A stretch of 64,000 nucleotides of DNA from Roseobacter sp. (GTDB lineage Bacteria; Pseudomonadota; Alphaproteobacteria; Rhodobacterales; Rhodobacteraceae): assembly GCA_015665415.1 (NCBI GenBank), contig JADFAE010000026.1, positions 62,001 to 126,000 on the forward strand. Direction: 5' to 3'. The notes beneath the pieces were generated by a model, which made no database searches, had not been told where the DNA came from, and was given only the letters and a program-made list of their open reading frames with translations. This document shows, in pieces, positions 46,928 to 62,580 of the stretch. A program made the translations under genes and the position numbers. Position 1 is the stretch's first letter. Each line of letters starts with the position of its first letter.

Positions 46928-49024
46928 CTATTTGGCAGCGCTTGCGCGCACGGGCACCCCATTGAAGGCCGCATTGCCGCTGATCGGGTCAATACGGCTG
47001 TCATCCGTCAGATCATTGATCGACACGGTCTGCACCTTGGTGGCCGCCGAAAGATTGCCCTGACGTTGCCCCCAGCCCTGCGGGATCGAGATTACCCCCA
47101 GTGCAATTTCATCGGTAATCTCGGCCGGCAGCGTCGCTGTTCCCACCGCACTTTCGACCAGAACCTCCTGCGCCTCCGCCAGCTCCAGCCGCGCCGCATC
47201 CTGCGGGTGCAGCTGCACCGTGCAGCGGTTGCGTCCCTTGACCAGCCTGACGCTGTTCTGGGTCCAGCTGTTGTGGCTGCGCACCTGGCGGCGGCCAATC
47301 ATGACCATGGGGAACTCTTCGCAAACCGGTGGGTTAAAGGCCAACAGACGTTCCAGATCCGCCAGAAAGACCTCAGGCGCAAGGTTCAGTCGCCCATCCT
47401 GGGTTTCCAACCTCTCGACGATGTTTGACACCAGCGGGCCAAGGTCGATCGATCCCGAGGGCGCGTTCAGCAGGGCCTCTACCGAGACCACATCACCATG
47501 GTAGCCCTGGGGCAGCATCATGCCCAGCACCTCGGTTGGCGAGGGGCCAATGCGGTTTGAGCCAGTGAGTTTGGCCGTAAGGCGTGCGATCACCTCCCAC
47601 TCCTGCGGGTTGCCATTGGGCGGCGCAAAAATCGGCCCGGCAAAGGCGGCGGTGTTGCGCACCGCAAAGCTGTGAAACACCATGTCATAGACCTCTTCTT
47701 CGAGGGCGACAGTTGCGGGCAGGATCAGATCGGCATGCCGGGTGGTGTCATTGATATGCAGATCAATCGACATCATGAAATCGAGCTGTTCAAGGGCGCG
47801 GCCGATGCGTTGCCCGTTGGGCGCTGTCAGCACCGGATTGCCCGCCACCGAGACCAGCGCCTTGATCTGCCCTGCACCAGGGGTCTCCATCTCTTCGGCC
47901 ATGACCGAGACCGGGAATTCGCCATTGTACAGCGGCTGGTTCGAAACCCGCGAGCGTTTCTCTGGATAGCTGCGCGCCTTGCCCTTGCGGCTGGTCATGC
48001 CGACATAATCCAGCGCCGGGGTGGTGAACATCGCCCCACCTTCGCTGTCAAAATTGCCGGTGATGATGTTGAGCGCATTGCTGGCCCATTGGCACAACGA
48101 CCCAAAGCTTTGGGTCGAGGCCCCCATGCGGGCATAACAAACCGCAGATTTGGCAGTGGCAAAACTACGCGCCAGATCGCGAATGGTCTGACCCTTGATG
48201 CCGGTCATTTCAGCGGCCTTTTCGGCGGTGAAGGGCTGAACCGCTTCCTTCAGGGCGGCAACCCCATCGGTCACTGCAGCCAGCGCTCCAAGATCCTCCA
48301 GCCCTTGGGCAAAGATCTCGTGGATCAGCGCAAACAAGAGGAAGGCATCTGTCTCTGGCTGGATGAACAGATGCTCGCCTGCGCGTTCAGCCGTCTCGGT
48401 GCGGCGCGGATCAACCACCACAACCCGACCACCGCGTGCCTTGATCTCATCCATGCGTTTGCCAAAGCCCGGCGCGGTCATCATCGACCCGTTGGAGACC
48501 ACCGGATTGCCGCCCAGGATCAGCATCAGATCCGTGCGCGCCACATCCGGGACCGGGATCAACATCGGATGGCCGAGCATATGGATCGAGGCGACATGGT
48601 GCGGGATCTGATCCGCCGTCGCTGAGGAATATCGGTTTGTGGTGCCAAGCGCCTTGACCAGCCCCGGCAGGTTCAGAAGATTGCCGAACTTATGGGCGTT
48701 GGGATTGCCGAGATAGACCCCAACCCCGTCCTTGCCATTGGCCTCTTGCACCGCCGTGAGGCGTTCGACGGCAAATTCATAGGCCTCGTCCCAGCTGATC
48801 GGCACAAATTCCCCATTCACCTTTTTCAGCGGTGTGGTGACCCGATCCGCATCGGTGCGAAAATCCTGCAAGGCAATGGCCTTGGGGCAGATATGCCCCC
48901 GCGACAGCGGATCAGCCGGATTGGCCTTGATCGAATGCACATCCGTGTCGTCATGAGTCACAACCAGCCCGCACATGGCCTCGCAGATATTGCAGGTTCG
49001 GTACTGGGTTTTCAGGTTGCTCAT
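46928..49024 (-). CDS. Molybdopterin oxidoreductase (DMSO-reductase family), lone subunit
   Basis: A 698-residue protein. The N-terminal 4Fe-4S cluster is formed by Cys11, Cys14, Cys18 and Cys46 (CNICEAMC...GHIC). Molybdopterin-binding segments follow (GGNPVVSNGSMM near 175, DPRRTETAERAGEHLFIQPETDAFLL near 210) and the C-terminal dinucleotide-binding domain has RSHNSWTQNS near 570. At the place where formate dehydrogenases carry Cys or selenocysteine this protein reads RYSSATADQ, so it is not a standard FDH. No signal peptide and no partner electron-transfer subunit nearby. The ATG at 49024 follows GGAGG by 6 bp. Substrate unknown. Confidence 0.85.
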   Translation of the reverse strand: MSNLKTQYRTCNICEAMCGLVVTHDDTDVHSIKANPADPLSRGHICPKAIALQDFRTDADRVTTPLKKVNGEFVPISWDEAYEFAVERLTAVQEANGKDGVGVYLGNPNAHKFGNLLNLPGLVKALGTTNRYSSATADQIPHHVASIHMLGHPMLIPVPDVARTDLMLILGGNPVVSNGSMMTAPGFGKRMDEIKARGGRVVVVDPRRTETAERAGEHLFIQPETDAFLLFALIHEIFAQGLEDLGALAAVTDGVAALKEAVQPFTAEKAAEMTGIKGQTIRDLARSFATAKSAVCYARMGASTQSFGSLCQWASNALNIITGNFDSEGGAMFTTPALDYVGMTSRKGKARSYPEKRSRVSNQPLYNGEFPVSVMAEEMETPGAGQIKALVSVAGNPVLTAPNGQRIGRALEQLDFMMSIDLHINDTTRHADLILPATVALEEEVYDMVFHSFAVRNTAAFAGPIFAPPNGNPQEWEVIARLTAKLTGSNRIGPSPTEVLGMMLPQGYHGDVVSVEALLNAPSGSIDLGPLVSNIVERLETQDGRLNLAPEVFLADLERLLAFNPPVCEEFPMVMIGRRQVRSHNSWTQNSVRLVKGRNRCTVQLHPQDAARLELAEAQEVLVESAVGTATLPAEITDEIALGVISIPQGWGQRQGNLSAATKVQTVSINDLTDDSRIDPISGNAAFNGVPVRASAAK

Positions 49025-49205
49025 GGCTGCCTCCGGTTGATTTTGCATCTCTTCTGAAACACGAGCCTAGACCAGAGGTCGCGTCATTTGCAGAGGCTTA
49101 TCCCGGTGGTTTGGCGCTTGGACCAAACGTCACTTTGCCCCAAGAGGCGCTTTTTGGCAGCCGCCTCCCCACAGGAACTGCCTCCGTTTCCGTGATGAGC
49201 GGACC

Positions 49206-50012
49206 CTAGTCCAGCCATCCCGGCGACACTTCCGGCAAAGGAATCGCATCCAACAGATCACGGGTATATTGCGCCTGCGGGGCATCAAACAGCGCCTCTG
49301 TTGTCGCCAGCTCCACGATTTCACCGTGATGCAGAACCAGGGTGGTCTGGCATAACCTGCGGATCACCGACAGATCATGGCTGATAAACCCCAGTGTCAG
49401 CCCCATGTCGCTGACCAGTCTCTCCAACAGGTTCAGCACCTGCGCCTGCGATGAAACGTCCAGCCCGGAGACCACTTCATCCGCCAGGATGAAGTCCGGC
49501 TCGGTGGCGATGGCGCGGGCGATACCGACGCGCTGGCGCTGGCCACCCGACAACTCATGCGGGTAGCGACTGCGAAACGCCAGCGGCAAGCCAACCTGCG
49601 ACAAGGCAAGATCCACCCGTTCCCGGATCTGGTCAAACCCATGCAACCGCAGCGGCCCGGCAATGATCGCCGCCACAGTGTGACGGGGGTTGAGCGAAGA
49701 CATCGGATCCTGAAATATCATCTGGATACGCTTGCGCAGGGGGCGCATGTCTGTCTCGCCCAGATGGGTGATATCCTGACCATCAAAGCGGATCTCGCCG
49801 GACGCCACCTCCAACAGGCGCACCATGGCGCGGCCCAAAGTCGACTTCCCGGAGCCCGAGCCGCCAACGATGCCAATCACATCGCCGCGCTGGATGTCAA
49901 AACTCACCCCCTTGAGCACTTCAATCCGAGGTGAGGCGCCAAACAGGGGCTTGTGAGCATGATCGGCAAAGGAGAGACGCAGATCGCGAATTTCAAAAAG
50001 TGGCTGGCTCAT
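49206..50012 (-). CDS. Peptide-type ABC importer, ATP-binding subunit (DppF/OppF-like)
   Basis: A 268-residue ATPase. Walker A GGSGSGKST near 50, signature ELSGGQRQRVGIARAIATEPD near 155, Walker B FILADEVVSGLD near 175 and the switch His in GFISHDLSV. The C-terminal oligopeptide-transporter extension (EIVELATTEALFDAPQAQYTRDLLDAIPLP) shows the family. Last gene of the left operon; its start overlaps the stop of the paired ATPase by 4 bp. No OppD/F-type iron-sulfur cysteines stood out. Confidence 0.93.
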   Translation of the reverse strand: MSQPLFEIRDLRLSFADHAHKPLFGASPRIEVLKGVSFDIQRGDVIGIVGGSGSGKSTLGRAMVRLLEVASGEIRFDGQDITHLGETDMRPLRKRIQMIFQDPMSSLNPRHTVAAIIAGPLRLHGFDQIRERVDLALSQVGLPLAFRSRYPHELSGGQRQRVGIARAIATEPDFILADEVVSGLDVSSQAQVLNLLERLVSDMGLTLGFISHDLSVIRRLCQTTLVLHHGEIVELATTEALFDAPQAQYTRDLLDAIPLPEVSPGWLD

Positions 50013-50872
50013 CCAGGCCTCCTGTGATCATGGGCCGCAATCTCGGCCTCAACACTGCGGGTCACCGCCTCTGGCACCGACATCAGGCTGCCGTCCGGGT
50101 CGGTGTATTTGGGTGTCGCCGCCAGCAAGGCTGCGGAATAGACATGGGCGGGCGACTGAAAGAACTCATCAACCGTGGTGTCCTCCAGCACCTTGCCGCC
50201 ATAGAGAACCGTCATGGATTGGCACAGTTTTGAAACCACCCCAAGGTCATGGGTGACAAACAGCAAGGCCGTCCCATGGCGCTGCTGCATGTCGCGGATC
50301 AGACGCAGGATCTGTTTTTGCACGGTCACATCCAGCGCCGTTGTTGGCTCATCCGCCACAATCAGGCGCGGCTGGGCCGCAAAGGCCGAGGCGATCAGAA
50401 TGCGCTGCCGCATCCCCCCCGACAGCTCATGCGGATAGGCGCGCATCACCCGTTCCGGAGCAGGAATATGCACCTCATCCAACAGCTCAATCACCCGTGC
50501 CTGCGCCTGCTTGCGACGCCACCCCAGAATATCAACCAGGCGATTGGTGATCTGCGGCCCCACCCGGCGGGCCGGGTTCAATGCGGTCAGCGGATCCTGT
50601 GGGATCAATGCCGCCTTGGCGCCAATCAGATGGCGGCGCTCCCTGGCCGCCATGGCCAAGAGATTTTCCCCATCCAAATGTATGCTGCCACCGGTGATGC
50701 GGATGGCCTCTGGCAGCGTGCCCAGGATTGCCTTGCCGATCATGCTTTTACCCGCGCCGCTTTCGCCCACCAGGGCGCGGACTTCGCCGACTTCGACTTG
50801 CAGCGAGACATCGCGCAGGATCGGCAAGGCACCAACTTGCGCACTCAGCCCCTCCAGTTTCAAAAAGCTCAT
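50009..50872 (-). CDS. Peptide-type ABC importer, ATP-binding subunit (DppD/OppD-like)
   Basis: A 287-residue ATPase with Walker A GESGAGKSM near 36, LSGGMRQRILIASAFAAQPR near 150 and LIVADEPTTALD near 169, plus the C-terminal peptide-transporter tail (GGKVLEDTTVDEFFQSPAHVYSAALLAATP). It powers uptake by the two permeases upstream. ATGA overlaps on both sides couple it to the permease and to the second ATPase. Confidence 0.93.
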   Translation of the reverse strand: MSFLKLEGLSAQVGALPILRDVSLQVEVGEVRALVGESGAGKSMIGKAILGTLPEAIRITGGSIHLDGENLLAMAARERRHLIGAKAALIPQDPLTALNPARRVGPQITNRLVDILGWRRKQAQARVIELLDEVHIPAPERVMRAYPHELSGGMRQRILIASAFAAQPRLIVADEPTTALDVTVQKQILRLIRDMQQRHGTALLFVTHDLGVVSKLCQSMTVLYGGKVLEDTTVDEFFQSPAHVYSAALLAATPKYTDPDGSLMSVPEAVTRSVEAEIAAHDHRRPG

Positions 50873-51720
50873 CGTAGCACCGGGTCAAAGTGGTCCTTCA
50901 ACCCTTCGCCAAGTTGGCTAAAGCTGAGGACAGTTAAAAAGAGGGTGATCAACGGAAACACCAGCACCCACCAGGATTGATGGATCGAGGCCCGCCCCTC
51001 GGCGATCATGCTGCCCCAGGTGGGATCATCGGTGGAGATCGACAGGTTCACAAAGCTGAGGATGGCCTCAACGATGACCGCAATCCCCATCTCGAGGGTC
51101 AACAGGACAACAATCGTCGGCAGCACGTTGGGTAGGATCTCGACTACCATGATGCCAAAGCGTTTGCGCCCGGCAACCTTGGCCGAGGCGACATAATCCA
51201 TCGCGCTCTGGCTCATCGCTTCGGCGCGGATCACCCGGGCAAAACGGGTCCAGTCAATCACCACGATGGCGACAATAATCGAGGTCAGCCCCGTGCCCAT
51301 CACCGCGATCAGCAGGATGGCAAACAGCACCGGCGGAAAGGCCATCCAGATCTCGATAAAGCGCGAGATCAACAGATCGGCCCAGCCACGATAGTAGCCC
51401 GCAACCAGACCCAACCCGGCCCCCAGTATGCAGGTGCAACTGCCGGCAATCAGCGCCACCACCAAAGCGATGCGCGCACCATAGAGCGTGCGGCTCAGCA
51501 CATCGCGCCCCAGTGAATCCGACCCCAGCGGATAGGCCGGATCTGCCCCGGCCTGCCACAGCGGCGGCAGGCGGGAGGCAAACAGATCCTGCGCCAGCGG
51601 GTCCTGCGGCGCCAGCAGTGGCGCGGCGAGGGCCGCAATCACCAAGAGCAGCAACCAACTGCCCGAAAGCCAGAGCCGGGAATTTATCTGCCGTTTTGCG
51701 GCAGCGCGCCCATCAGCCAT
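50869..51720 (-). CDS. Peptide-type ABC importer permease (DppC-like)
   Basis: A 283-residue inner-membrane permease with an N-terminal helix (about 17-37), a periplasmic loop holding DPLAQDLFASRLPP, and five more helices. GSDSLGRDVLSRTLYGARIALVVAL near 67-91 is the DppC/OppC signature, and EAMSQSAMDYVASAKVAGRKRFGIM near 168-190 the EAA coupling loop. Overlaps the DppB-like gene by 8 bp and the ATPase by 4 bp. Confidence 0.93.
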   Translation of the reverse strand: MADGRAAAKRQINSRLWLSGSWLLLLVIAALAAPLLAPQDPLAQDLFASRLPPLWQAGADPAYPLGSDSLGRDVLSRTLYGARIALVVALIAGSCTCILGAGLGLVAGYYRGWADLLISRFIEIWMAFPPVLFAILLIAVMGTGLTSIIVAIVVIDWTRFARVIRAEAMSQSAMDYVASAKVAGRKRFGIMVVEILPNVLPTIVVLLTLEMGIAVIVEAILSFVNLSISTDDPTWGSMIAEGRASIHQSWWVLVFPLITLFLTVLSFSQLGEGLKDHFDPVLR

Positions 51721-52723
51721 GTCGCAACCTCGGGTTCAGCAATGCATAGGTCAGATCGACCAGCAGATTGACGGAGGTGAAGATCACCGCAAACAGGATC
51801 ACGATGCCCTGGATCAAAGGCAAATCGCGGTTGATCACCGCATCAATCGCCATATTGCCCAACCCCTCGTAGGAAAACAGCCGCTCGATGATCACGGTGC
51901 CACCAATCAAAAAGGTGAACTGCACGCCAACCAGTGTCAGGGTTGGCAGGATCGCATTTGGCAGCGCTTCGCGCAGGATCACATGGGTTTCGCTATAGCC
52001 CTTGGTGCGGGCCAGGGTGACATAGTCCAAATGCATGGTTTCCTTCAAAGATTGCTTCAATAGCTGGGCGATAATCGCGGCCAGCGGAATGGCCAGCGCC
52101 AGGGCGGGCATAAACATATGGCTGACCAGATCGAGCCAGATATCAAACCGCAGCCGCAGCAGGCTTTCGAACAGGTAGAAATTGGTGACAAAGGGCAGAT
52201 CCAGCGCCGGTGAGACCCGGCCCGAGATATGGAACACCGGCCAGAGCACGCCAAACAACAGAATGAACAACAACCCCCAAAGGAAATCCGGCACCGACAG
52301 CGAGATCCCATTGGTGACGTCAATCACGGCCTCGGTCTTGCCCCCGCGCTGACGCGTCCCGGCCAGCGCCAAAGCACCGCCAAGAGCGACTGCCATGACC
52401 AGCGCCATGATTGACAGCTCCAATGTGGCCGGCAGCCGCCCCAGCACCAGCGACATCACCGGTTGGCGGGTGGTGATCGAGGTGCCAAAATCTCCAGCCA
52501 GGATGCCTTTGCCCCAGATCAGGAATTGTTCGGGGAGGGTTTTGTCAAACCCGTACAGCGCCTTGAGCCGGGCAATATCCTCTTCTCCCGCTCCGGGCGG
52601 CAGCATCATGGCAATGGGGTTTCCCGGCACGATGCGGATCACAAAAAAGACGATCACCGCAACACCGATCAGGGTGATCAGCATCGAGACCAGACGTTTC
52701 AGAAATGTGCGTATCAGGGTCAT
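51713..52723 (-). CDS. Peptide-type ABC importer permease (DppB-like)
   Basis: A 336-residue permease with six helices. The first helix (LVSMLITLIGVAVIVFFVIRIVPGNP, about 11-35) and YGFDKTLPEQFLIWGKGILAGDFGTS near 54-80 are DppB/OppB hallmarks; the EAA loop is KETMHLDYVTLARTKGYSETHVI near 227. Together with the DppC-like protein it forms the transmembrane channel for whatever the binding protein delivers. Confidence 0.93.
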   Translation of the reverse strand: MTLIRTFLKRLVSMLITLIGVAVIVFFVIRIVPGNPIAMMLPPGAGEEDIARLKALYGFDKTLPEQFLIWGKGILAGDFGTSITTRQPVMSLVLGRLPATLELSIMALVMAVALGGALALAGTRQRGGKTEAVIDVTNGISLSVPDFLWGLLFILLFGVLWPVFHISGRVSPALDLPFVTNFYLFESLLRLRFDIWLDLVSHMFMPALALAIPLAAIIAQLLKQSLKETMHLDYVTLARTKGYSETHVILREALPNAILPTLTLVGVQFTFLIGGTVIIERLFSYEGLGNMAIDAVINRDLPLIQGIVILFAVIFTSVNLLVDLTYALLNPRLRHG

Positions 52724-52766
52724 GGTTTTTGGTGCCGGAGAGGTCAGACCTCCCCGGCATCTGTCC

Positions 52767-54293
52767 TTATGATCTGGTCATGAGATGGGGCAACAAGGCC
52801 CCCGAGGCATGGGGCACCACCTTGACGCCAGGGGCGTGCAGGATGGGCTGAACATATTGAAACAGCGGCAGGACCAGCGCGTCGTCGGCGATCTTGCGAT
52901 CCACCGCTTTCCAGCCGTCAATGCGCTTGGCCTCATCCGCCTCTCCCCAAAGCGGCGCGATCATGCCCACCAGATCCTCTCCATCCCAGACCGAATGCGG
53001 CGAGGGCCCAAACATCGCAAAGCCGGTAGAGGTGGTCGGATCCCCAATCGAGTTGCCCCAGTTGTAAAAGGCCGCCGGTGCCAGCGTATCGGTCGCCCGC
53101 AGCTCATAGTGCTTTGCGATCTCATAGACCTCGATTTCAGCCTCGATGCCGACCTTGCGCCACAGACCCACGATGGCCTGAATGACCTCGTAATCCTTGG
53201 GCTTGAAGCCACGGGTGGTCTGAATGGTAAAGCGCACCGGATTGTCGATGGAATAGCCCGAAGCGGCCAGCAGCTCTTTGGCGCCTTCGGGGTCATAGGG
53301 GGTGGAGATCGACGCATCATAGGCCGAATACTCCGGCGTCTGCAGCGTGTCGATCGGCACACCGTAGCCTGACAACAACCGTTCAACGATGGCCTGTTTG
53401 TTCACCGCCTTGACGGCGGCGCGGCGCACATTGGGATCTTTCATCACATCAATGTCGTTGAAAAAGATCATCCCGATATCTGAAATCGGCTGGGCCACCC
53501 CCATCAGATTGCCTGCCCGCAGCCGGTCGAATTCTTCCGATGGCATCTCGAGCGTCACATGGGCGTTGCCCGATTCCACCTCAGCCACGCGGGCCGCAGA
53601 ATCGGTGACAAACTTGATGGTGACCGTTTTGAATTCCGGCGCATCCCCCCAATAGCCATCATAGGCCTTGAGCCGGATAAAGGCGTTGCGCTCATATTTT
53701 TCGACCATATAGGGCCCAGAGCCCATGGGGGCCGCCTCAAACCCGTCCTGACCGTTGGCCTCGATATAGGCCTTGGGCAAGACATAGCCGGTGAGGAAGG
53801 ACATCCATTTGAAAATGGTCGGCTCAAACCGAAGCACATCGCCGGTGATCTGATTGCCACTGATTTCGAAATTACCGATGGTCGACCAGATGAACTGAAT
53901 CGGATTGCCGCCATCCGGATCTGCCGCACGCTCCAGGCTCCAGACCACGTCTTCGGCGGTCAACGGCGTGCCATCGTGCCAGGTGACACCTTCGCGCACG
54001 GTCATCTCCACCTTGGTCTTGTCGGCGTTCCAGCCCCATTTGGTGAGAATGCCCGGGGTCTGGCTCAGGTCGGTGTCCTGCGCGATGAACATATCAAAGA
54101 CCGACTGGTAGATGCCTTGGATCGTCGGGTTCACCGCCGAGGTCCCCACCGTCGGATTCCAGCTGGGCAGGTTGACGTTATTGGCAATCACCAGATCCTT
54201 GATCTCTTGCGCCAGCGCCGGCAGGCCTGTCGCCGCCAGGGTAATCGTTGCCGCGCTCAGCTTAAGCAACCCTCGTCTTGAAAAATCCGTCAC
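52767..54293 (-). CDS. ABC transporter substrate-binding protein, SBP_bac_5 family, Tat-exported
   Basis: A 508-residue periplasmic binding protein. The leader MTDFSRRGLLKLSAATITLA has the twin-arginine motif SRRGLLK and cleavage after ALA near residue 28. The mature part fits the dipeptide/nickel/agropine-like SBP_bac_5 family (LTAEDVVWSLERAADPD, PYMVEKYERNAFIRLKAYDGYWGDAPEFKTVTIKFV, DPNVRRAAVKAVNKQAIVERLL). Members bind peptides but also opines, glutathione, betaines and aromatic conjugates. It sits between the flavoprotein gene and the permeases, so its ligand is probably the flavoprotein's substrate or a precursor. Confidence 0.92.
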   Translation of the reverse strand: MTDFSRRGLLKLSAATITLAATGLPALAQEIKDLVIANNVNLPSWNPTVGTSAVNPTIQGIYQSVFDMFIAQDTDLSQTPGILTKWGWNADKTKVEMTVREGVTWHDGTPLTAEDVVWSLERAADPDGGNPIQFIWSTIGNFEISGNQITGDVLRFEPTIFKWMSFLTGYVLPKAYIEANGQDGFEAAPMGSGPYMVEKYERNAFIRLKAYDGYWGDAPEFKTVTIKFVTDSAARVAEVESGNAHVTLEMPSEEFDRLRAGNLMGVAQPISDIGMIFFNDIDVMKDPNVRRAAVKAVNKQAIVERLLSGYGVPIDTLQTPEYSAYDASISTPYDPEGAKELLAASGYSIDNPVRFTIQTTRGFKPKDYEVIQAIVGLWRKVGIEAEIEVYEIAKHYELRATDTLAPAAFYNWGNSIGDPTTSTGFAMFGPSPHSVWDGEDLVGMIAPLWGEADEAKRIDGWKAVDRKIADDALVLPLFQYVQPILHAPGVKVVPHASGALLPHLMTRS

Positions 54294-54308
54294 AGTCTTT
54301 CCTCCCGT

Positions 54309-55874
54309 TTATGATGTCAGTTTTTTGCCCAGCAGATATCCCGGTCCCGCCCCGGTTCCGGCCCCGGGCCAGACAGCCGCGCCAGTGTGGTAAAGTCCTT
54401 TGATCGGGGTTGAGCCATCGCTGCGCCCACGCATCGGGCGATAAACAAAATGTTGCGACAGATGATGGCTGCCGCAGATCTGATCCCCGCCCACCAGATT
54501 GGGATTGTCCGCCTCCAACTGGGCAGGGGTCACAATCCGCTGGGCAATGATCTGGGCGCGCAGGCCCGGCGCGTAGGATTCAACGATATCCAATGCACGA
54601 TCTGTCATCGGCTGCGCCGCCGCCGGCCAGTCGCGCGCCAAAATGGTCCCGCCTGCATCGCCTTTGATCTGGGCCGGGACCATGCGGACCTGCAGCCACA
54701 GGGTATGTTTGCCCGCCGGCGCACGACTGGGATCCAGGACCGTGGGCTGACCCACAACAATCACCGGCGCATCCGGCAACAGACCACCAAGGGCCTGCTG
54801 ATAGGTCTGCGCCATCTGGTCCATGTCGGGTGCCAGATGCACATAGGCATAGTCGCGCAATTTGTCCGAGGCCGACCAGTTCGGCAGATCCTCCACCGCC
54901 AAGTGAATCATCATCGTTCCCGGCGCGTGACGAAAGCTCCGCAGCGCCTGGTCATAGCTGGGCTCAACCGCACCAATCATCTGGTGCAGGTTTCCGGGTG
55001 CTACATTGGCGATCACTGCCTGCGCAGCCAGATGTTCGGTGCCATCCGCCAGCCTGACGCCAACCGCCTTGCCCTCTCTGATCAGGACCCGCTCGACCTC
55101 GGCATTGCAGGTCACGGTGCCACCCTTGGCCGTAATGCAGGACAGCATGGCCTGGGTCACCGCCCCGGCCCCGCCCTTGCCGATCACCAGGCCAAACGCC
55201 TGATTGGCCATCGCCTCGAGATAGGGGAACAACGCGCCCCCAGCGATATCGGGTGCAAAATCCAGATGCATCCCCCAAGCCGCCAAGGTGGATTTCACAT
55301 GCGCAGAGGTAAAGGTCTGATCCAACCAGGCCCGCGGCGAGGCCGCGAGGAATTGCCCAAGGTCCAAAGCCCCCGACAGTTTCTTGCGGCGCAGCAGATG
55401 CCAGAAATTTTTGGCCACGGCACGGAATTCAAAGGAAGAGCCCAGAATGGCAAAGATATGCTCTGCCTGCTCCGGGAATTGGGCGGATAAGTCGCGCCAG
55501 GTTTGCGAATCACTATTTGCAAATGCATGTATCATTCGCGCATTCGCTTCGGCATCGGTGCCAATGCCCAGCCACTGGCCATCAGGAAAGGCGCTGGCAA
55601 AGCAATTCTGCGCCGGTGTAAACTCCAGCCCCGCCTCCGTCAGTTCCGCTCCAAACTCCTGAAAAAAGGGCGACCCAGCCAGTAAAGACAGGTTCATTGC
55701 AGCCCAATCATGGGTGAAACCCGGCTCTGTATAGCTGCCGGACTTGACCGCACCACCGGGCTCGGACGCCTGCTCAAAGATCGCAACCCGCATCCCTTTG
55801 CGCTGCAAAACCATAGCGCTGGCCAGGCTGTTCAGCCCTGATCCTATGATCACAACATCGGCGTTTCGGCACAT
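54309..55874 (-). CDS. FAD-dependent oxidoreductase, PYROXD2/phytoene-desaturase-like (left copy)
   Basis: A 521-residue amine-oxidase-fold flavoprotein. VVIIGSGLNSLASAMVLQRKGMRVAIFEQASEPGGAVKS at residues 8-45 is the FAD dinucleotide motif with its GG doublet, and the C-terminal GLYHTGAAVWPGAGTGAGPGYLLGKKL the second flavin contact. It resembles PYROXD2 and bacterial CrtI-like desaturases in plan, but there is no carotenoid cluster here. It shares several blocks with the 56778-58355 protein (LDPSR, IKGDA, NLVGGD). First gene of the left operon, 15 bp before the binding-protein gene. Reaction unknown; oxidation of a C-N or C-C bond is likely. Confidence 0.85.
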   Translation of the reverse strand: MCRNADVVIIGSGLNSLASAMVLQRKGMRVAIFEQASEPGGAVKSGSYTEPGFTHDWAAMNLSLLAGSPFFQEFGAELTEAGLEFTPAQNCFASAFPDGQWLGIGTDAEANARMIHAFANSDSQTWRDLSAQFPEQAEHIFAILGSSFEFRAVAKNFWHLLRRKKLSGALDLGQFLAASPRAWLDQTFTSAHVKSTLAAWGMHLDFAPDIAGGALFPYLEAMANQAFGLVIGKGGAGAVTQAMLSCITAKGGTVTCNAEVERVLIREGKAVGVRLADGTEHLAAQAVIANVAPGNLHQMIGAVEPSYDQALRSFRHAPGTMMIHLAVEDLPNWSASDKLRDYAYVHLAPDMDQMAQTYQQALGGLLPDAPVIVVGQPTVLDPSRAPAGKHTLWLQVRMVPAQIKGDAGGTILARDWPAAAQPMTDRALDIVESYAPGLRAQIIAQRIVTPAQLEADNPNLVGGDQICGSHHLSQHFVYRPMRGRSDGSTPIKGLYHTGAAVWPGAGTGAGPGYLLGKKLTS

Positions 55875-55895
55875 TATTTTGTCTCCCTCGGCTAT

Positions 55896-55930
55896 ATTGT
55901 TTGCAAATGGAAATATATTTGTCTAGCAAT
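55896..55930. promoter_or_regulatory. AT-rich divergent promoter/operator region
   Basis: The 107-bp gap between the two operons contains ATTG...CAAT arms at 55896 and 55927 and an inner CAAAT-8-ATTTG repeat at 55904-55921. Symmetric AT-rich sites like this suit a MarR dimer, and a MarR gene lies in the right operon. Position and symmetry only; the exact operator is uncertain. Confidence 0.4.
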
Positions 55931-55981
55931 GATTCATAAATATGCACCCGAAAACGGGGCAATCATTTCAGGGAGAACGCC

Positions 55982-56773
55982 ATGAGCGCGCAAAATACAC
56001 TTACCAATCTGGGCACATTGCTGGCCTCTGGCAGTGTCGAAGTTGTGGATTGTTCCGGGGTCTTGGGACCGGATACGCCAATCCTGCAACTGCCCGCAGA
56101 CTTTGCCAAACCCACCCCCAAGGTGGAGATCCACAAAATCAGCGAATATGATGCGGACGGCCCCTTCTTTGCCTGGAACTGGATGGTTCTGGGAGAACAC
56201 TCCGGCACCCATTTTGATGCCCCGCACCATTGGATCACCGGCAAGGACTACGAAGATGGCTATACCGACACCCTGGACGTCAACCGGCTGATCGCGCCGG
56301 TGAATGTCATCGATTGCTCCCGCGAAAGCGCCGAGGATGCCGACTTTCTGCTGACAGCAGATCTGGTACAGGCCTGGGAGACAGTGCACGGCGAGATTGG
56401 CGCAGGAGAATGGGTTGTGCTGCGCAGCGACTGGGACAAACGCGCCGAGGATGAGGCCCGTTTCCTCAATGCCGACGAGACCGGACCACACTCCCCCGGC
56501 CCCACCCCCGACTGCATGGAATACCTGCTGTCCAAAAAGATCGTGGGCTGGGGCAGCCAGTGCATTGGCACGGATGCAGGTCAGGCCGGCATGATGGAAC
56601 CACCCTACCCGGCCCATAACATGTTGCACCGCGACAATTGCTTTGGTCTGGCCTCGCTTGCCAATCTCGACAAGCTGCCTGCCAGGGGCGCGATCCTGGT
56701 CGCCGCGCCGCTCAAGATCCAGCATGGCACAGGCTCGCCGATCCGCGCGCTCGCCCTGGTTCCCAAGGGCTAA
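55982..56773 (+). CDS. Cyclase-family (KynB-like) metal-dependent amidohydrolase
   Basis: A 263-residue protein. GEHSGTHFDAPHHW near residues 76-89 is the metal-binding His-x-Gly-Thr-His-x-Asp-x-Pro motif of the cyclase/kynurenine-formamidase family, and VVLRSDWDKR near 142 and a downstream LPARGAILVAAPLKIQHGTGSPIRALAL segment also fit. Members hydrolyse N-formylkynurenine, isatin or cyclic ketones and amides. First gene of the right operon, only 4 bp before the second flavoprotein. The substrate could be an isatin-like or cyclic amide compound, which is inference. Confidence 0.87.
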   Translation: MSAQNTLTNLGTLLASGSVEVVDCSGVLGPDTPILQLPADFAKPTPKVEIHKISEYDADGPFFAWNWMVLGEHSGTHFDAPHHWITGKDYEDGYTDTLDVNRLIAPVNVIDCSRESAEDADFLLTADLVQAWETVHGEIGAGEWVVLRSDWDKRAEDEARFLNADETGPHSPGPTPDCMEYLLSKKIVGWGSQCIGTDAGQAGMMEPPYPAHNMLHRDNCFGLASLANLDKLPARGAILVAAPLKIQHGTGSPIRALALVPKG

Positions 56774-56777
56774 GGCG

Positions 56778-58355
56778 ATGGCTGATCACGTCATAATTGG
56801 CACCGGCATCAACGCTCTTGTCGCCGGGGCGATGCTGTCGCGCCAGGGCAAAAAAGTACTCTTGCTGGAGCGGGAGGAACGCATTGGTGGTTGCATGATG
56901 ACCACCGAGGCGACTCTGCCGGGTTTTCATCATGACGTGATGGCCGCCACTTTTGTATTGTTCCTGACCTCACCGGCCTATGGCGAGCTGGCCGAGGATC
57001 TGGGCAAGCACGGCTTTGAGCTGTGCCATACCTCGCACCCAACTGCAGTGTTGCGTCCCTGTGGGCGCGCCACCGTCTTGACCACGGACAGGGCCGCAAA
57101 CATCGCCACCTTCAACGACCTGGTACCGGGAGACGGTGATCAACACGCAGCTGATGTGGGCACAATCGAGGCCGACGCGCCTTTCCTCTTTGCCCTGCTG
57201 GGGGGGGATCTGTGGTCCTGGCGCACCGCTCGGCTGATGCTGGCTGAGATCCGCAAGCGTGGCCTGAACGGGCTGAAATCCTGGATCGGTGAGGCCCTGC
57301 GCCCGGCCCGCGGCTGGCTCGAGACGTCTTATGCCAGCCCCGATCTGCAGGCACTTTGGGCGCCCTGGGTGCTGCACACCGGTCTCACCCCGGAAAGCAC
57401 CTATTCCGCCCAGATGGGCAAGGTCGTCGCCTTTGCACTGGAGGCCGCAGGTGCCCCGATCGTCAAGGGCGGGGCAGGCGCGGCCGCAGAAGCCTTTCGC
57501 CGCCTGATCGAGGCCAATGGCGGTGAGATCCGCACCGGCGTTGACGTGGCAAAAATCACCCTCTCCGACCCAGGGCGCAAGACCCGCCGGGCGACGGGCG
57601 TTGAAACCGCCTTGGGCGAAAAAATCCCGGCCAAACATGTGCTGGCCTCGGTCACGCCTTCGCAGCTGTACACCCGTCTGCTGGCCGATGCCGCCCCGCA
57701 GGACCAGGCGGCGCAGGCACAGAAGTTTCGCCATGGGCGCGGCAATTTTCAGCTGCACTATGCACTGGACAAAGCCCCGGAATGGCGGGCTGAAGGACTG
57801 GAAGATGTCGCCTTAATCCATCTCAGTAACGGCATCGACGCAGTGTCAAAATCCGCAAATGAGGCAGAGCGCGGCATGCTGCCTGCAACACCCACAATCT
57901 GTGTTGGCCAGCCGCATCGGTTGGACCCAAGCCGTTGCCCTGATGGCCAGGCCATCCTCTGGCTGCAAATCCCGGATGCCCCCCGCCTGATCAAGGGCGA
58001 TGCGGCCGGTGAAATCAACTCCGGTGGAACCTGGGACGACGCCACCCGTGAGGCTTTTGCCGACCGGATCGAGGGCATTTTGAGCCACCACATCGAGAAT
58101 TTCGACCAGATCAAACTGGCACGACGCGCCTTTTCGCCTGCCGATCTGGCCGCCTTGAACATGAACCTTGTGGGCGGCGATCCATACGGCGGTCAGTGCA
58201 GCATTGATCAGTTTTTTACCTTCCGCCCGTTTAGCTCCTCGCGCAACGGCAGTACTCTTTTTCGCAACTTGCACCACATCGGTGCATCCACACACCCCGG
58301 TCCCGGCCTTGGCGGCGGCTCCGGGTTCAATACAGCGAAAAGGCTCGGCGCATGA
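56778..58355 (+). CDS. FAD-dependent oxidoreductase, PYROXD2/phytoene-desaturase-like (right copy)
   Basis: A 525-residue flavoprotein. HVIIGTGINALVAGAMLSRQGKKVLLLEREERIGGCMMT at 4-42 is the FAD motif; HHIGASTHPGPGLGGGSGFNTAKRL near the C-terminus is the second contact. Length and shared blocks (LDPSRCPDGQAILWLQIPDAPRLIKGDAAG, NLVGGDPYGG) show it is a paralogue of the 54309-55874 protein. Start at 56778, 4 bp after the cyclase stop; its own stop overlaps marR. The two copies face each other across the divergent promoter, which suggests successive or heteromeric steps. Confidence 0.85.
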   Translation: MADHVIIGTGINALVAGAMLSRQGKKVLLLEREERIGGCMMTTEATLPGFHHDVMAATFVLFLTSPAYGELAEDLGKHGFELCHTSHPTAVLRPCGRATVLTTDRAANIATFNDLVPGDGDQHAADVGTIEADAPFLFALLGGDLWSWRTARLMLAEIRKRGLNGLKSWIGEALRPARGWLETSYASPDLQALWAPWVLHTGLTPESTYSAQMGKVVAFALEAAGAPIVKGGAGAAAEAFRRLIEANGGEIRTGVDVAKITLSDPGRKTRRATGVETALGEKIPAKHVLASVTPSQLYTRLLADAAPQDQAAQAQKFRHGRGNFQLHYALDKAPEWRAEGLEDVALIHLSNGIDAVSKSANEAERGMLPATPTICVGQPHRLDPSRCPDGQAILWLQIPDAPRLIKGDAAGEINSGGTWDDATREAFADRIEGILSHHIENFDQIKLARRAFSPADLAALNMNLVGGDPYGGQCSIDQFFTFRPFSSSRNGSTLFRNLHHIGASTHPGPGLGGGSGFNTAKRLGA

Positions 58356-58819
58356 CACAGGATTTGGCAACGCTTCGATTTGGCGAAATTGGCTTGAGCA
58401 ATTTTGCCCCCTATCTGATGAACCGCATCATGGGGCGCTATAACGCCAGCCTGCGCGAAGAGATGGCAGAGCTGGGTCTGACAACCCCCAAAATCCGGAC
58501 GTTGGCGGTACTGGCGATGATCGACGGACTGCTCATCGGGGAACTGGCGGTCTATGCAGTGGTGGAATACTCCACCCTGTCGCGCGCCCTGGACGGGCTG
58601 GAAAAAGAGGGGCTGGTGCGGCGGGCCCCCGACCCCGAAGACCAGCGCGCCACGCGGGTGTTCATGACAGATGCCGGGCGCGCCGCCTTTGAAAAATTCT
58701 GGCCGCGCATGGCGCAGACCTACGCCCAGATGTTCGAGGGCATTTCCACGGAAGAGCGCCAGGCCTTTGAGGCAACGCTGCAAAAGATCCTGCGCAATGT
58801 GCGGGTTCACGATTTTTAG
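58352..58819 (+). CDS. MarR-family transcriptional regulator
   Basis: A 155-residue winged-helix regulator. It has the MarR plan: an N-terminal dimer helix, LTTPKIRTLAVLAMIDGLLIGELAVYAVVEYSTLSRALDGLEKEGLVRRAPDPEDQRATRVFMTDAGRAAF near 45-115 with the DxRxxRV-type wing, and C-terminal dimer helices. Such proteins often sense aromatic acids or acyl-CoAs. Its gene lies inside the right operon with an ATGA overlap before it, so it is probably autoregulated and likely binds the divergent promoter region. Confidence 0.92.
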   Translation: MTQDLATLRFGEIGLSNFAPYLMNRIMGRYNASLREEMAELGLTTPKIRTLAVLAMIDGLLIGELAVYAVVEYSTLSRALDGLEKEGLVRRAPDPEDQRATRVFMTDAGRAAFEKFWPRMAQTYAQMFEGISTEERQAFEATLQKILRNVRVHDF

Positions 58820-58855
58820 ATACCCCGGTTATGGTCGGGACGACGGAGGACAGAC

Positions 58856-61006
58856 ATGGCAGAGCGCTCGTTCAAAAAAGAAGTAGAGCATCTCCGGGCA
58901 GGATCGGGCGAGACTTTCACCGGCGAAGGCATTCTCGCCATCACCAAGGCGCTGCTGGAAAATGGTGTCGGCTATGTGGGCGGCTATCAGGGCGCTCCAA
59001 TCTCGCATCTGATGGATGTTCTGGCCGATGCCGAAGAGCTGCTGGGCGAGCTGGATGTGCGATTTGAGGCCAACGCCTCTGAGGCCGCAGCAGCAGCCAT
59101 GCTGGCCGCTTCAGTGCATTATCCGATCCGCGGGGCGGTGACCTTCAAGGGCTCGGTCGGGGTCAATGTCGCCTCGGACGCGTTGGCCAATTTGTCGTCC
59201 TCCGGGGTCAATGGCGGCGCTGTGGTGATTGTGGGTGAGGACTATGGCGAAGGCTCTTCGATCATGCAGGAGCGCAGCCATGCCTTTGCGATGAAATCAC
59301 AATTCTGGCTGATGGACCCACGCCCCAACCTGCCCTCCATTGTGCAATCCGTGGGCCAGAGCTTTGAGCTGTCAGAGGCCTCGAACACGCCGGTGATGCT
59401 GATGGTGCGGATCCGCTCTTGTCATGTGACCGGCAGTTTTGAGTGCAGCGACAACAAGCGCCCAGCGCTGACGGTCAAAGACGCCCTGGCCAATCCGCAA
59501 CGCGACTGGAACCGTGTGGTGCTGCCGCCGATGTCCTTTGCCCATGAACAGGACAAGGTCAACACCCGCTGGCCCAAGGCCCAACAGCACATCATCGACC
59601 AGCAGCTGAACGAGTTTTTTGGCCCCAAGACAGGTGATCTTGGCCTCATCTGTCAGGGCGGCATGTACAATGGTGTCATCCGCGCGCTGCAACGGCTGGG
59701 GCTGGCGGATATCTATGGCAACACCGACATTCCACTGTATTGCCTGAACGTCACCTATCCGCTGGTCGATCAGGAGTTCCTCCAATTTTCGAAGGGCAAA
59801 AAAGGACTTTTGCTGATCGAAGAAGGTCAGCCCGAGTTCATCGAGCAGGGGTTCTCCACCATGCTGCTGCGCTCTGATCTGAAGGTGAAACTGCACGGCA
59901 AGGATGTCTTTCCCATGGCCGGCGAATACACCGGTCAGGTCCTGCTGGATGGCATCACAGCCTTTGTGAAACAACACGCGCCCGATCTGCTGCCTGGCCA
60001 GATGCGCGCGCCCAATCAGATGGCCCCCAGCCTGCCGGACCTGAGCCAGACCGTGCCAAGCCGGCCGCCAGGATTCTGTACCGGCTGCCCCGAACGGCCC
60101 ATTTTTGCGGCTCTGAAACTGGCGCAACAGGAACTGGGTGAGCATCAGATCAGCGCCGATATCGGTTGCCACCTCTTTGCCTCGCTCCCGCCCTTTGACA
60201 TTGGCGGCGCCACCATGGGCTATGGCTTGGGGCCCGCCTCCAACGCGGCCTTTGATGGCGGCGGTGAGCGGCGGGCAATTTCGATCATTGGCGACGGTGG
60301 GTTCTGGCACAATGGGCTGTCATCCTCGATTGGCAATATGGTGTTCAACAAGGCCGACAGCGTCGCGGTGGTGGTCGACAACTACTACTCTGCTGCAACC
60401 GGTGGGCAAGACATTCTGTCCAGCCGCGCCGACAACCCGACCAAATCCACCAAAAACCCGATCACCAAGGCGCTGCGCGGCGTCGGCGTCGAATGGGTCC
60501 GTCAAATCGATCACACCTATGACGTCACCAAGATGCGGGCCATTTTCCACGAGGCCCTGACCACCGATTATGACGGCCCCAAGGTCATCGTTGCCTCAAG
60601 CGAATGCATGCTGAACCGGCAGCGCCGCGAAAAACCACAACGCAATCAGATGATCCGCCTGGGGGCCCGGATGGAGGTCCCCCGCTTTGGCGTCGACGAA
60701 GATATCTGCACGGGCGATCACGCCTGCATTCGCCTGTCCGGCTGCCCTTCGCTGTCGGTCAAACATCTCAGCGACCCCCTGCGCGATGATCCGGTGGCCA
60801 GCATCGACCAAAGCTGCGTGGGCTGTGGCAATTGCGGAGAGGTGGCGGATGCCGCCGTGCTCTGCCCCAGTTTCTACCGTGCAGATGTGGTGCATAACCC
60901 CACCCGGATCGAAGCTTGGTGGGCGGGCCTGACAGCACGCCTGATTTCCTGGCTGCAAGATCGCCGCATGGCCGGACAGATTCAGTTTTCGGAGATCGCC
61001 CGATGA
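58856..61006 (+). CDS. Indolepyruvate-type 2-oxoacid:ferredoxin oxidoreductase, alpha subunit (IorA-like)
   Basis: A 716-residue subunit. The N-terminal pyrimidine-binding part has GEGILAITKALLENGVGYVGGYQGAPISHLMD near 23. FCTGCPERPIFAALK near 405 precedes the TPP pyrophosphate-binding segment GDGGFWHNGLSSSIGNMVFNKADS near 480 with its GDG...N pattern. The C-terminus carries two 4Fe-4S-type clusters, CTGDHACIRLSGC near 616 and CVGCGNC near 652. IorAB enzymes decarboxylate arylpyruvates to aryl-acetyl-CoA with ferredoxin. Its stop overlaps the beta-subunit start. Substrate in this cluster is unknown. Confidence 0.9.
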   Translation: MAERSFKKEVEHLRAGSGETFTGEGILAITKALLENGVGYVGGYQGAPISHLMDVLADAEELLGELDVRFEANASEAAAAAMLAASVHYPIRGAVTFKGSVGVNVASDALANLSSSGVNGGAVVIVGEDYGEGSSIMQERSHAFAMKSQFWLMDPRPNLPSIVQSVGQSFELSEASNTPVMLMVRIRSCHVTGSFECSDNKRPALTVKDALANPQRDWNRVVLPPMSFAHEQDKVNTRWPKAQQHIIDQQLNEFFGPKTGDLGLICQGGMYNGVIRALQRLGLADIYGNTDIPLYCLNVTYPLVDQEFLQFSKGKKGLLLIEEGQPEFIEQGFSTMLLRSDLKVKLHGKDVFPMAGEYTGQVLLDGITAFVKQHAPDLLPGQMRAPNQMAPSLPDLSQTVPSRPPGFCTGCPERPIFAALKLAQQELGEHQISADIGCHLFASLPPFDIGGATMGYGLGPASNAAFDGGGERRAISIIGDGGFWHNGLSSSIGNMVFNKADSVAVVVDNYYSAATGGQDILSSRADNPTKSTKNPITKALRGVGVEWVRQIDHTYDVTKMRAIFHEALTTDYDGPKVIVASSECMLNRQRREKPQRNQMIRLGARMEVPRFGVDEDICTGDHACIRLSGCPSLSVKHLSDPLRDDPVASIDQSCVGCGNCGEVADAAVLCPSFYRADVVHNPTRIEAWWAGLTARLISWLQDRRMAGQIQFSEIAR

Positions 61007-62580
61007 ATACCCCCCTTGAGCTTAGGCCGACACTGCCCGATGAGCGGCTGAACTCTGTCATCAAAATCGCAATTCTGGCCGTTGGCGGCCAGGGCGGCGG
61101 GGTCTTGACCAGTTGGATCGAAAGCCTCGCGCGCAACCAAGGCTATGCCGCACAGGCCACCTCGGTGGCCGGGGTGGCGCAGCGGACCGGTGCCACCATC
61201 TACTACATCGAGATGGCCCCCCTGGGGTCTGCGATGCCGGTGTTCTCGCTGGCGCCGGCAGCCGGGGATATCGACATCATGATCGCTGCCGAAATGATGG
61301 AAGCCGGGCGCGCCATCATGCGAGGCTTTGTCACGCCGGATCGCACCACGTTGATTGCCTCGACCCACCGCACGCTGGCGCTGTCAGAGAAGATGGCCCC
61401 CGGCGATGGCATAGCCTCCAGTGACGAGGTGCGCGCCGCCGCTGAAATCGCAGCCGACCAGCTCATCCTGTTTGATATGGAGCAATTGGCCATCGACAAT
61501 GGTTCCGTCATTTCCTCGGCCTTGTTTGGGGCCCTGGCCGGCTCCGGCGCCCTGCCCTTTGCGCGCGCAGGTTTTGAAGAGGCCATCCGCGCCTCTGGCA
61601 AAGGGGTGGATGCCAGCCTGCGTGCTTTTGGGGCGGCCTATGCGCGCGCGCAGTCAGATACAGATGCAGCCCCAGCAGCCAGCCCGGTGACGCGCGCCGA
61701 ACAGAGTGGAGAACAGATCACCAGTCAGATCACCAGTGGCCCCAAAGATCTGCTGAAGCAGTGGCAGGAGTTTGAGGACGAGGCCCGAAGCCTGCCTTGC
61801 CCACAGATGGCCCTCAGCGGGCTGCGCAAAGTTGTTGGCTTTCAGGATCTCGCCTATGGGCGCAGCTATCTTGATCATATCTCAACCTTTGCCCAACAGG
61901 ATCAGGGGGACGGGCGGCTGGCCGAAGCCGCAGCCAAACATATCGCCAATGCAATGTGCTATGACGACATCATTCGGGTGGCCGATCTCAAAACCCGCAA
62001 GGCGCGGTTTTTGCGCATTCACACCGAAATGGCGTCAGGAGAAAAGCCGGTCCAGTTGACCGAGTTTTTCCATCCCAGAGGGGAAGAGATCATCAGTCTT
62101 TTGCCCGCCTCCCTTGGCGCATGGATCGAAGCCCGCCCGCGACTGGCAGCCTGGATTGATCGTCGCCTCAATCGGGGGCGCAGAATTCGTACCCATCGGT
62201 TGCGGGGCTTTGTGCTGCTCTATGTGATTGCCGGCCTGCGGCGGACCCGCCGTCGCAGTCTGCGCCATCGGGTGGAGCAGGCCCATTTGCACGCCTGGCT
62301 GACCCTGTGCCACGAAACGCTGCCGCAAAACTATGAATGCGCAATCGAGTTGCTGCAGTGTCGACGTCTGATCAAGGGCTATTCGGACACCCATGCGCGC
62401 GGGCTGTCAAAATTTGCCCGCATCATGGCCGTTGTGCCCGCCCTGATTGACCGGGACGACGCGGGCCAATGGATCGCCCGCCTGCGTGAAGCCGCGCTTG
62501 GTGATGAAGACGGCACCGATTTGGACGGCGCCATCAAGACAGTGATGTCCTTTGCCCATCCCGCGGCCCAGGCTTCGTGA
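61003..62580 (+). CDS. 2-Oxoacid:ferredoxin oxidoreductase beta/gamma subunit (IorB-like) with long C-terminal extension
   Basis: A 525-residue protein. Residues 20-200 are the gamma-type catalytic domain: IAILAVGGQGGGVLTSWIESLA near 23, TSVAGVAQRTGATIYYIEM near 48. Archaeal IorB ends near 200; here about 300 more residues follow, a helical domain (KVVGFQDLAYGRSYLDHIST...) that resembles the DUF6537 tail I recall from proteobacterial IorB and fused IorAB proteins. The ATG at 61003 overlaps the alpha stop as ATGA. No signal peptide. It partners IorA in a cytoplasmic, ferredoxin-linked enzyme. Confidence 0.87.
   Translation: MNTPLELRPTLPDERLNSVIKIAILAVGGQGGGVLTSWIESLARNQGYAAQATSVAGVAQRTGATIYYIEMAPLGSAMPVFSLAPAAGDIDIMIAAEMMEAGRAIMRGFVTPDRTTLIASTHRTLALSEKMAPGDGIASSDEVRAAAEIAADQLILFDMEQLAIDNGSVISSALFGALAGSGALPFARAGFEEAIRASGKGVDASLRAFGAAYARAQSDTDAAPAASPVTRAEQSGEQITSQITSGPKDLLKQWQEFEDEARSLPCPQMALSGLRKVVGFQDLAYGRSYLDHISTFAQQDQGDGRLAEAAAKHIANAMCYDDIIRVADLKTRKARFLRIHTEMASGEKPVQLTEFFHPRGEEIISLLPASLGAWIEARPRLAAWIDRRLNRGRRIRTHRLRGFVLLYVIAGLRRTRRRSLRHRVEQAHLHAWLTLCHETLPQNYECAIELLQCRRLIKGYSDTHARGLSKFARIMAVVPALIDRDDAGQWIARLREAALGDEDGTDLDGAIKTVMSFAHPAAQAS

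Follow-up and report, generated by a model that had tools for sequence, protein, structure and literature searches.

A block of 11 open reading frames (ORFs) at positions 49206–62580 of a 64,000-nucleotide stretch of Roseobacter sp. DNA (contig JADFAE010000026.1; the whole stretch is referred to as the window) is proposed to be a MarR-controlled regulon in which an imported indolic compound is, on balance, probably catabolized via isatin. Judged from its sequence, the regulon is most likely an isatin trunk resembling that of the iad auxin-degradation loci with a different, flavoprotein front end, in which flavoenzymes and a dipeptide-type importer take the place of IadCDE. Gene content, conservation, co-occurrence and a shared promoter element were established by computation. 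The features of the block, with the basis of each assignment, are:

49206–50012, minus strand: ATP-binding cassette (ABC) importer ATPase, DppF/OppF-like (profile families, locus conservation)
50009–50872, minus strand: ABC importer ATPase, DppD/OppD-like (profile families, locus conservation)
50869–51720, minus strand: ABC importer permease, DppC/OppC-like (profile families, locus conservation)
51713–52723, minus strand: ABC importer permease, DppB/OppB-like (profile families, locus conservation)
52767–54293, minus strand: solute-binding protein, SBP_bac_5 (profile family, alignment to DppA)
54309–55874, minus strand: flavoprotein A (FlavA), CrtI/amine-oxidase fold, proposed isatin-forming step (profiles, model)
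55896–55929, plus strand: conserved 34-bp promoter/operator element in the 107-bp gap (pooled motif search)
55982–56773, plus strand: isatin hydrolase, B type (GLAS) (sequence match, signature)
56778–58355, plus strand: flavoprotein B (FlavB), CrtI/amine-oxidase fold, proposed isatin-forming step (profiles, model)
58352–58819, plus strand: MarR-family regulator, proposed repressor of both operons (profile family)
58856–61006, plus strand: IorA/IadA-type subunit with thiamine pyrophosphate and iron–sulphur domains, 2-oxoacid oxidoreductase, proposed isatinate oxidoreductase
61003–62580, plus strand: IorB/IadB-type subunit (POR + DUF6537)

All 11 ORFs were confirmed, six leftward and five rightward, forming two operons that diverge from a 107-bp gap (55875–55981) with 4–8 bp overlaps at five gene junctions; the coordinates and gene calls of a preliminary description of this DNA thus stand. 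Gene families were confirmed by Pfam/NCBIfam profile matches. The leftward operon encodes a Dpp/Opp-type ABC importer and FlavA, and the rightward operon a PF04199 ‘cyclase’, FlavB, the MarR regulator, IorA and IorB. A molybdopterin oxidoreductase gene (46928–49048) lies immediately to the left of the block and apparent glycosyltransferase genes lie to its right (seen in locus L089).

We infer every chemical step, and the inducer, as follows. The importer would take up the indolic substrate, which FlavA and FlavB would oxidize to isatin or a ring-substituted isatin. The B-type hydrolase would then convert isatin to isatinate, as its 86% identical, assayed relative suggests, and IorAB, of the IadA/IadB family, would form 2-aminobenzoyl-CoA from isatinate by oxidative decarboxylation. 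The pathway would continue with a 2-aminobenzoyl-CoA-monooxygenase-type enzyme whose gene lies at another place in the genome, and MarR, bound to the 34-bp element, would repress both operons until an indolic inducer binds.

Isatin hydrolase, flavoproteins and IorAB

The closest solved chain to the ‘cyclase’ in a phmmer search is isatin hydrolase B from Labrenzia aggregata (LaIHB, pdb 4j0n, E 2.4e-160), to which 226 of 262 residues are identical (86%). Ten of the 11 active-site positions compared are the same, with Phe209 replaced by Tyr. The protein carries both the Mn motif HSGTHFDAPHH (pattern HxG[T/A]HxDxPxH) and GLAS, and the GLAS/GLQC signature is named as a mark of isatin hydrolase activity in the available part of PMC6117287. 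The Mn motif is found in 75/75 and GLAS in 73/75 of the best-scoring hits from the fetched loci, a count that includes the window protein. LaIHB itself was assayed as an isatin hydrolase by others, according to the excerpted literature. By sequence, the protein is therefore an isatin hydrolase B orthologue. The ‘ring or amide hydrolysis’ of the preliminary description is narrowed to isatin hydrolysis, and its 2-oxoacid is then most likely isatinate.

The two flavoproteins can be placed in a fold. Their models (mean pLDDT, the predicted local distance difference test, 85.7) match first a carotenoid desaturase (4rep) and CrtI (4dgk) and then nicotine and amine oxidases in Foldseek, at 11–18% identity among the matches listed. 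Both fall below every named-family cut-off among the NCBIfam matches listed, including that of TIGR02734 (phytoene desaturase family; 143.8 and 81.8 bits against 238.1). Distant FlavA homologues in Cedecea, Agrobacterium and a haloarchaeon lie in other gene surroundings, which gave no clue to substrate. The solute-binding protein resembles DppA, in which we take an Asp to bind the substrate amino group. A Ser occupies this position in the window protein, and Ser or Ala is found in 55/55 readable copies (13 more were unreadable by pattern), which casts doubt on an ordinary peptide as the ligand.

IorAB belongs to the family named IadA/IadB in iad loci. IorB passes the cut-off of NF006179 (indolepyruvate oxidoreductase subunit beta family; 665.6 against 348 bits), and IorA misses that of TIGR03336 (indolepyruvate ferredoxin oxidoreductase alpha; 273.9 against 650.9 bits). 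This enzyme class acts on aryl 2-oxoacids, of which isatinate is one. In Azospirillum thermophilum (L118) IadC-, D-, E- and F-like genes (the names are ours) and a monooxygenase-type gene come after IorAB, and no isatin hydrolase was found in that stretch. IorAB also accompanies IadC–F-like genes in L139, L141 and L145, the last belonging to a congener of the window organism. Block and iad copies are intermixed in a tree of 35 IorA proteins, in which 8/32 inner branches are open. On plasmids, 46 of 51 matching records were at least 60% identical to IorA (best 86%), the other five ranging from 55% down to 28%.

In the excerpted texts of PMC9613470 and PMC12633357, isatin and isatinic acid are reported as iad intermediates. 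The latter, as far as its excerpt goes, further reports that the Variovorax iadC-K2 segment gives anthranilate in a locus-deletion strain, and that C8H7NO3 and C7H7NO build up strongly only in strains overexpressing it. Because the segment, by its gene names, is without iadAB, this build-up may reflect isatinate deprived of its oxidoreductase, a reading that is ours and not the authors'. IadAB serves as a marker of iad loci, and the excerpts of that literature assign no step to it; the conversion of isatinate to 2-aminobenzoyl-CoA would give it a definite job.

Genes annotated ‘bifunctional salicylyl-CoA 5-hydroxylase/oxidoreductase’ or similar adjoin the trunk in L138, L144 and also L118, and in Alloyangia the whole block lies beside a monooxygenase-type gene. 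This family presumably includes 2-aminobenzoyl-CoA monooxygenase/reductase. Contig C14 of the window genome carries a single gene of this kind, grouped with genes for a CoA ligase, an enoyl-CoA hydratase and an acyl-CoA dehydrogenase. Two other arrangements were observed. On an Alloyangia pacifica plasmid (L097:10958-13494) genes for an indole/styrene monooxygenase, a flavin reductase and a short-chain dehydrogenase/reductase lie near the block, upstream, possibly as a direct indole input. On the Ruegeria pomeroyi DSS-3 megaplasmid (L113:4084-16203) and in Shinella (L115), IorAB, a thioesterase and two MarR genes face cupin, FAH-family, racemase and nitrilase genes, an arrangement that may be a gentisate-like outlet or another pathway with the same IorAB family.

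Co-occurrence and conservation of the block

Input and trunk genes are nested in their occurrence across a sample of 196 genomes of the order, which are related and not independent. FlavB (E<=1e-150) is found in 19 of them, isatin hydrolase (E<=1e-70) in 33, IorA (E<=1e-200) in 38, the IadD-type oxygenase (E<=1e-120) in 17 and the 2-aminobenzoyl-CoA-monooxygenase-type (anthraniloyl-CoA-monooxygenase-type) protein (E<=1e-180) in 88, corresponding to 12, 22, 25, 12 and 50 of 87 genera, respectively. All 19 FlavB genomes and all 17 IadD genomes fall within the 33 with isatin hydrolase, and all 33 in turn lie within both the IorA set and the 88 with the monooxygenase-type gene, which is missing in 4/38 IorA genomes. 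The association of FlavB with isatin hydrolase has a Fisher p of 7e-18, uncorrected for kinship. Such nesting is what a funnel predicts, with interchangeable inputs above a common trunk. One IorA match (G145:C1:1321041-1323188) contains a single internal TGA.

The hydrolases divide in step with the input genes. When hits were split by identity to the window protein, with the cut set in a gap seen beforehand, B-like hydrolases (64–100%) occurred in 25 genomes and A-like ones (45–51%) in 17. The A-like and IadD sets consist of the same 17 genomes, and every one of the 19 FlavB genomes carries the B-like form; FlavB and IadD occur together in seven. The GLQC signature was read in L144, L145 and L115 and GLAS in the B-type copies read; the signature of the A-type copy of L139 was unreadable. 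The window genome has a single isatin hydrolase, of the GLAS type, and neither an A-type (GLQC) hydrolase nor an IadD-like oxygenase was found in it (best IadD match 33% identity, partial). Another species of its genus, G162, has an iad locus. The possession of two isatin hydrolases by one genome might thus be explained if A serves the auxin oxygenase and B other inputs.

A possible third isatin input is a B-type hydrolase fused behind a kynureninase-related domain of the pyridoxal phosphate (PLP) type, present in five of the 196 genomes (G054, G110, G167, G183, G199) and in the genome of L039. The fusion genes lie at L149:7712-9718, L150:7543-9534 and L152:7037-9073, and also in L151, L153 and L154. 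Their neighbours in L149 are a dipeptide-type importer, an M20 peptidase and a cupin protein, and L150 is alike. All five fusion genomes are within the IorA and monooxygenase-type sets, and G054, G167 and G183 have a separate B-type gene besides. A hydroxy-oxindolyl amino acid might be the substrate from which the PLP enzyme frees isatin. At least one of the three inputs (IadCDE, the flavoprotein pair, the fusion) occurs in 32/33 isatin-hydrolase genomes; none was found in the stretches fetched from the remaining one, G169. It is tentatively suggested, at somewhat less than even chances, that isatin is a catabolic hub, with one trunk (isatin hydrolase, IorAB as isatinate:ferredoxin oxidoreductase, and the 2-aminobenzoyl-CoA pathway) and at least three interchangeable front ends, namely IadCDE with the A-type hydrolase, the CrtI-fold flavoenzyme pair with the B-type hydrolase and importer, and the kynureninase-like fusion.

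The block is also conserved as a unit, well beyond what chance would give. Among the best 80 of 117 related stretches, found by scanning genome contigs with FlavB, all 11 genes keep the same order and orientation in 51, and 19 further loci are otherwise complete, cut only by a contig end. No gene family outside the block occurs in more than 14 of the loci, which gives it sharp borders. Judged by record title, most loci come from Rhodobacterales or Hyphomicrobiales, and one record bears the title Nocardioides marinus. Some copies are carried by roseobacter plasmids (Tritonibacter, Sulfitobacter, Alloyangia and strain La 6), all genes being on a single strand in the last two. Ten loci deviate (L014, L037, L039, L041, L046, L067, L085, L086, L087, L088). 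The genomes behind nine of these, together with those of L068, L009 and L016, were checked, and 12/12 have both isatin hydrolase (E<=1e-40) and IorA; in L067, the tenth, the locus itself contains isatin hydrolase and IorAB. A single S. indolifex plasmid holds both halves about 60 kb apart, one with isatin hydrolase, MarR and IorAB and the other with FlavA, FlavB and the importer. Separation of the flavoproteins, IorAB and transporter in most relatives would have spoken against the single pathway of the preliminary description, and this is not what was found, the block being whole in 51 of 80 loci. The conserved block, the nested presence and the element on split halves give good support to a single pathway that has a regulator of its own.

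A common replacement pathway at the deviating loci was considered and rejected: ten nearby proteins gave none, and the missing genes are elsewhere in those genomes. A glyoxalase/VOC-fold gene occurs in L020 (12089-12673) and 13 further loci, located either between the MarR and IorA genes or next to those for the importer; it has an apparent signal peptide in some and possibly serves an extracytoplasmic step before import. A partial permease match (66%; L142:12119-12490) beside an isatin hydrolase–MarR–IorAB locus without FlavB is possibly the remnant of a lost importer. On a Mesorhizobium loti NZP2037 plasmid (L094:11989-19555) a FlavA homologue, importer and VOC gene are flanked by xanthine-dehydrogenase-type and FAD-monooxygenase genes (FAD, flavin adenine dinucleotide), with the trunk not nearby.

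The promoter element and the MarR regulator

The 34-bp element was obtained by pooling 70 divergent FlavA/isatin hydrolase regions, palindrome searches of single intergenic regions being uninformative, and reads GATATTTGCAAATGCATTTAAATCTGTCTAGCaT. It scores at least 29.6 bits in 66/70 regions, a number that is partly circular as the matrix was trained on these regions. Of these 66, the window copy (55896–55929) has the lowest score, and no other separate site in the window exceeds -10.9; in the window genome, a 24-bp form allowing three or fewer mismatches matches a single site.

Split blocks lie outside the training set. In S. indolifex the element scores 40.7 bits at the FlavA/FlavB half and 43.9 bits at the trunk half, and in S. 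dubius 40.7 and 42.9 bits. The corresponding values are 50.7 and 15.9 bits in the L039 genome and 50.7 and 10.6 bits in the L046 genome, where the weak trunk-half sites keep the TTTGCA-TTTGCATTTAAAT core and are missing TGTCTAG. Next-best sites in split-block loci score under -9. Among trunk-only loci L142 has 40.7 bits and L137, L138 and L139 have -1.2, 2.9 and -4.4 bits; no element was found before the kynureninase-like fusions. In most relatives, though not in all, both halves are therefore probably under one regulator. The nearest matches of the MarR protein are 3cjn and 7kym, and it has Lys-Ile-Arg where IacR (7kua) has Arg-Trp-Arg, so that its inducer is possibly not indole-3-acetic acid (IAA); the ligand-pocket positions were matched to MarR_73 numbering on an inferred correspondence.

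Alternative readings and comparison with known systems

The B-type hydrolase might physiologically be kynurenine-formamidase-like, or another cyclic-amide hydrolase, in which case FlavA and FlavB would act on a compound derived from tryptophan or kynurenine and the IorAB substrate would be a different aryl 2-oxoacid. The kynureninase-related fusions lend this some weight, as does the placement of KynB in the same cyclase family by the excerpted literature. We nevertheless consider it unlikely, given the 86% identity to an assayed isatin hydrolase and a GLAS signature instead of the KynB motif; the iad loci, with isatin among the intermediates reported in the excerpts, hold the related A type, and the PLP domain of the fusions could itself release isatin. 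Degradation of IAA by an iad variant with the flavoproteins replacing IadCDE would fit the trunk and MarR common to iad loci, and a window genome without an IadD-like oxygenase beside a congeneric G162 with an iad locus. It appears improbable, however, since seven of the 19 FlavB genomes also have IadD, so that the inputs look additive, since the MarR residues differ from those of the auxin-binding IacR, and since the block is without a CoA ligase or thiolase for the side chain. That IorAB acts early, from indolepyruvate to indoleacetyl-CoA and not on isatinate, is suggested by the family name and the TIGR03336 match. This is quite improbable as well: the match is far under the cut-off, IorA accompanies isatin hydrolase (33/33) and the monooxygenase-type gene, and no aminotransferase was found in the block. 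Finally, two unrelated operons that are neighbours by chance are hardly credible; the block is split in Sulfitobacter and Tabrizicola relatives, but 51 of 80 loci are complete, both parts are retained in all 12 genomes checked, the split halves carry the element, and FlavB and isatin hydrolase are associated as given above.

Several observations weigh against the isatin pathway preferred here. A serine-to-cysteine change in LaIHB raised its activity on isatin, according to the excerpted literature, and its preferred substrate may therefore be another compound. FlavA and FlavB are placed by their models in a fold and not in a function or on a substrate. The fusions could combine a formamidase with a kynureninase, which would weaken the isatin reading, so that the B-type hydrolase may have formamidase activity and caution is called for. 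The L085 genome, with a distant FlavB (58%) and a sole isatin hydrolase hit that is A-like (47% identical), is an exception to the A/B rule. The element is missing in the gap of L082, L083 and L086, scores -4.9 bits in L087/L088, is poor in Alloyangia (7.2 bits) and La 6 (-11.4), and no copy was found in the C14 cluster stretch of the window genome. The C14 monooxygenase-type protein is under the NF006101 cut-off (1002.1 against 1078 bits) and among the two most divergent of the 88. IadAB is also not strictly required for anthranilate in Variovorax, the segment in the excerpt of PMC12633357 being apparently without iadAB.

If the isatin pathway is correct, the flavoenzyme pair would be a new route to isatin from an indolic compound other than IAA, and roseobacters and rhizobia would be predicted to have an undescribed diet of indole compounds. 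The gene set was not described in the titles and abstract beginnings among the matches listed from the open-licence PubMed Central (PMC) literature, and, judged from the same literature, a flavoprotein step feeding the isatin trunk appears undescribed. PMC8383072, PMC11630574, PMC12538310 and PMC6221969 were also drawn on in excerpt. The earlier statement that no named pathway has this exact set holds for the set as a whole and not for the trunk, as isatin hydrolase, IorAB and MarR are common to the named iad loci.

Among the closest known systems is the iad locus of Variovorax, Bradyrhizobium and Achromobacter, which, in the excerpts of PMC9613470 and PMC12633357, shares IadA/IadB-type IorAB, an isatin-hydrolase-type enzyme and MarR with the block. 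The block differs in having two flavoproteins and a dipeptide-type importer instead of IadC–F (including the Rieske oxygenase IadCDE), and its hydrolase is of the B type whereas that of iad is of the A type. Labrenzia isatin hydrolase B has the same Mn motif and GLAS in addition to its 86% identity, but has Phe209 where the window protein has Tyr, and the excerpted literature gives no operon or pathway for it. CrtI/CrtO and PYROXD2-like FAD enzymes share the fold and FAD domain of FlavA and FlavB, whereas identity to 4rep and 4dgk is 15–18%. The 2-aminobenzoyl-CoA pathway described, in the available part of PMC3534580, for Azoarcus evansii is the proposed outlet, with a gene of that type in 33/33 isatin-hydrolase genomes; it differs in that the gene lies outside the block and that the window genome holds a distant copy under the family cut-off.

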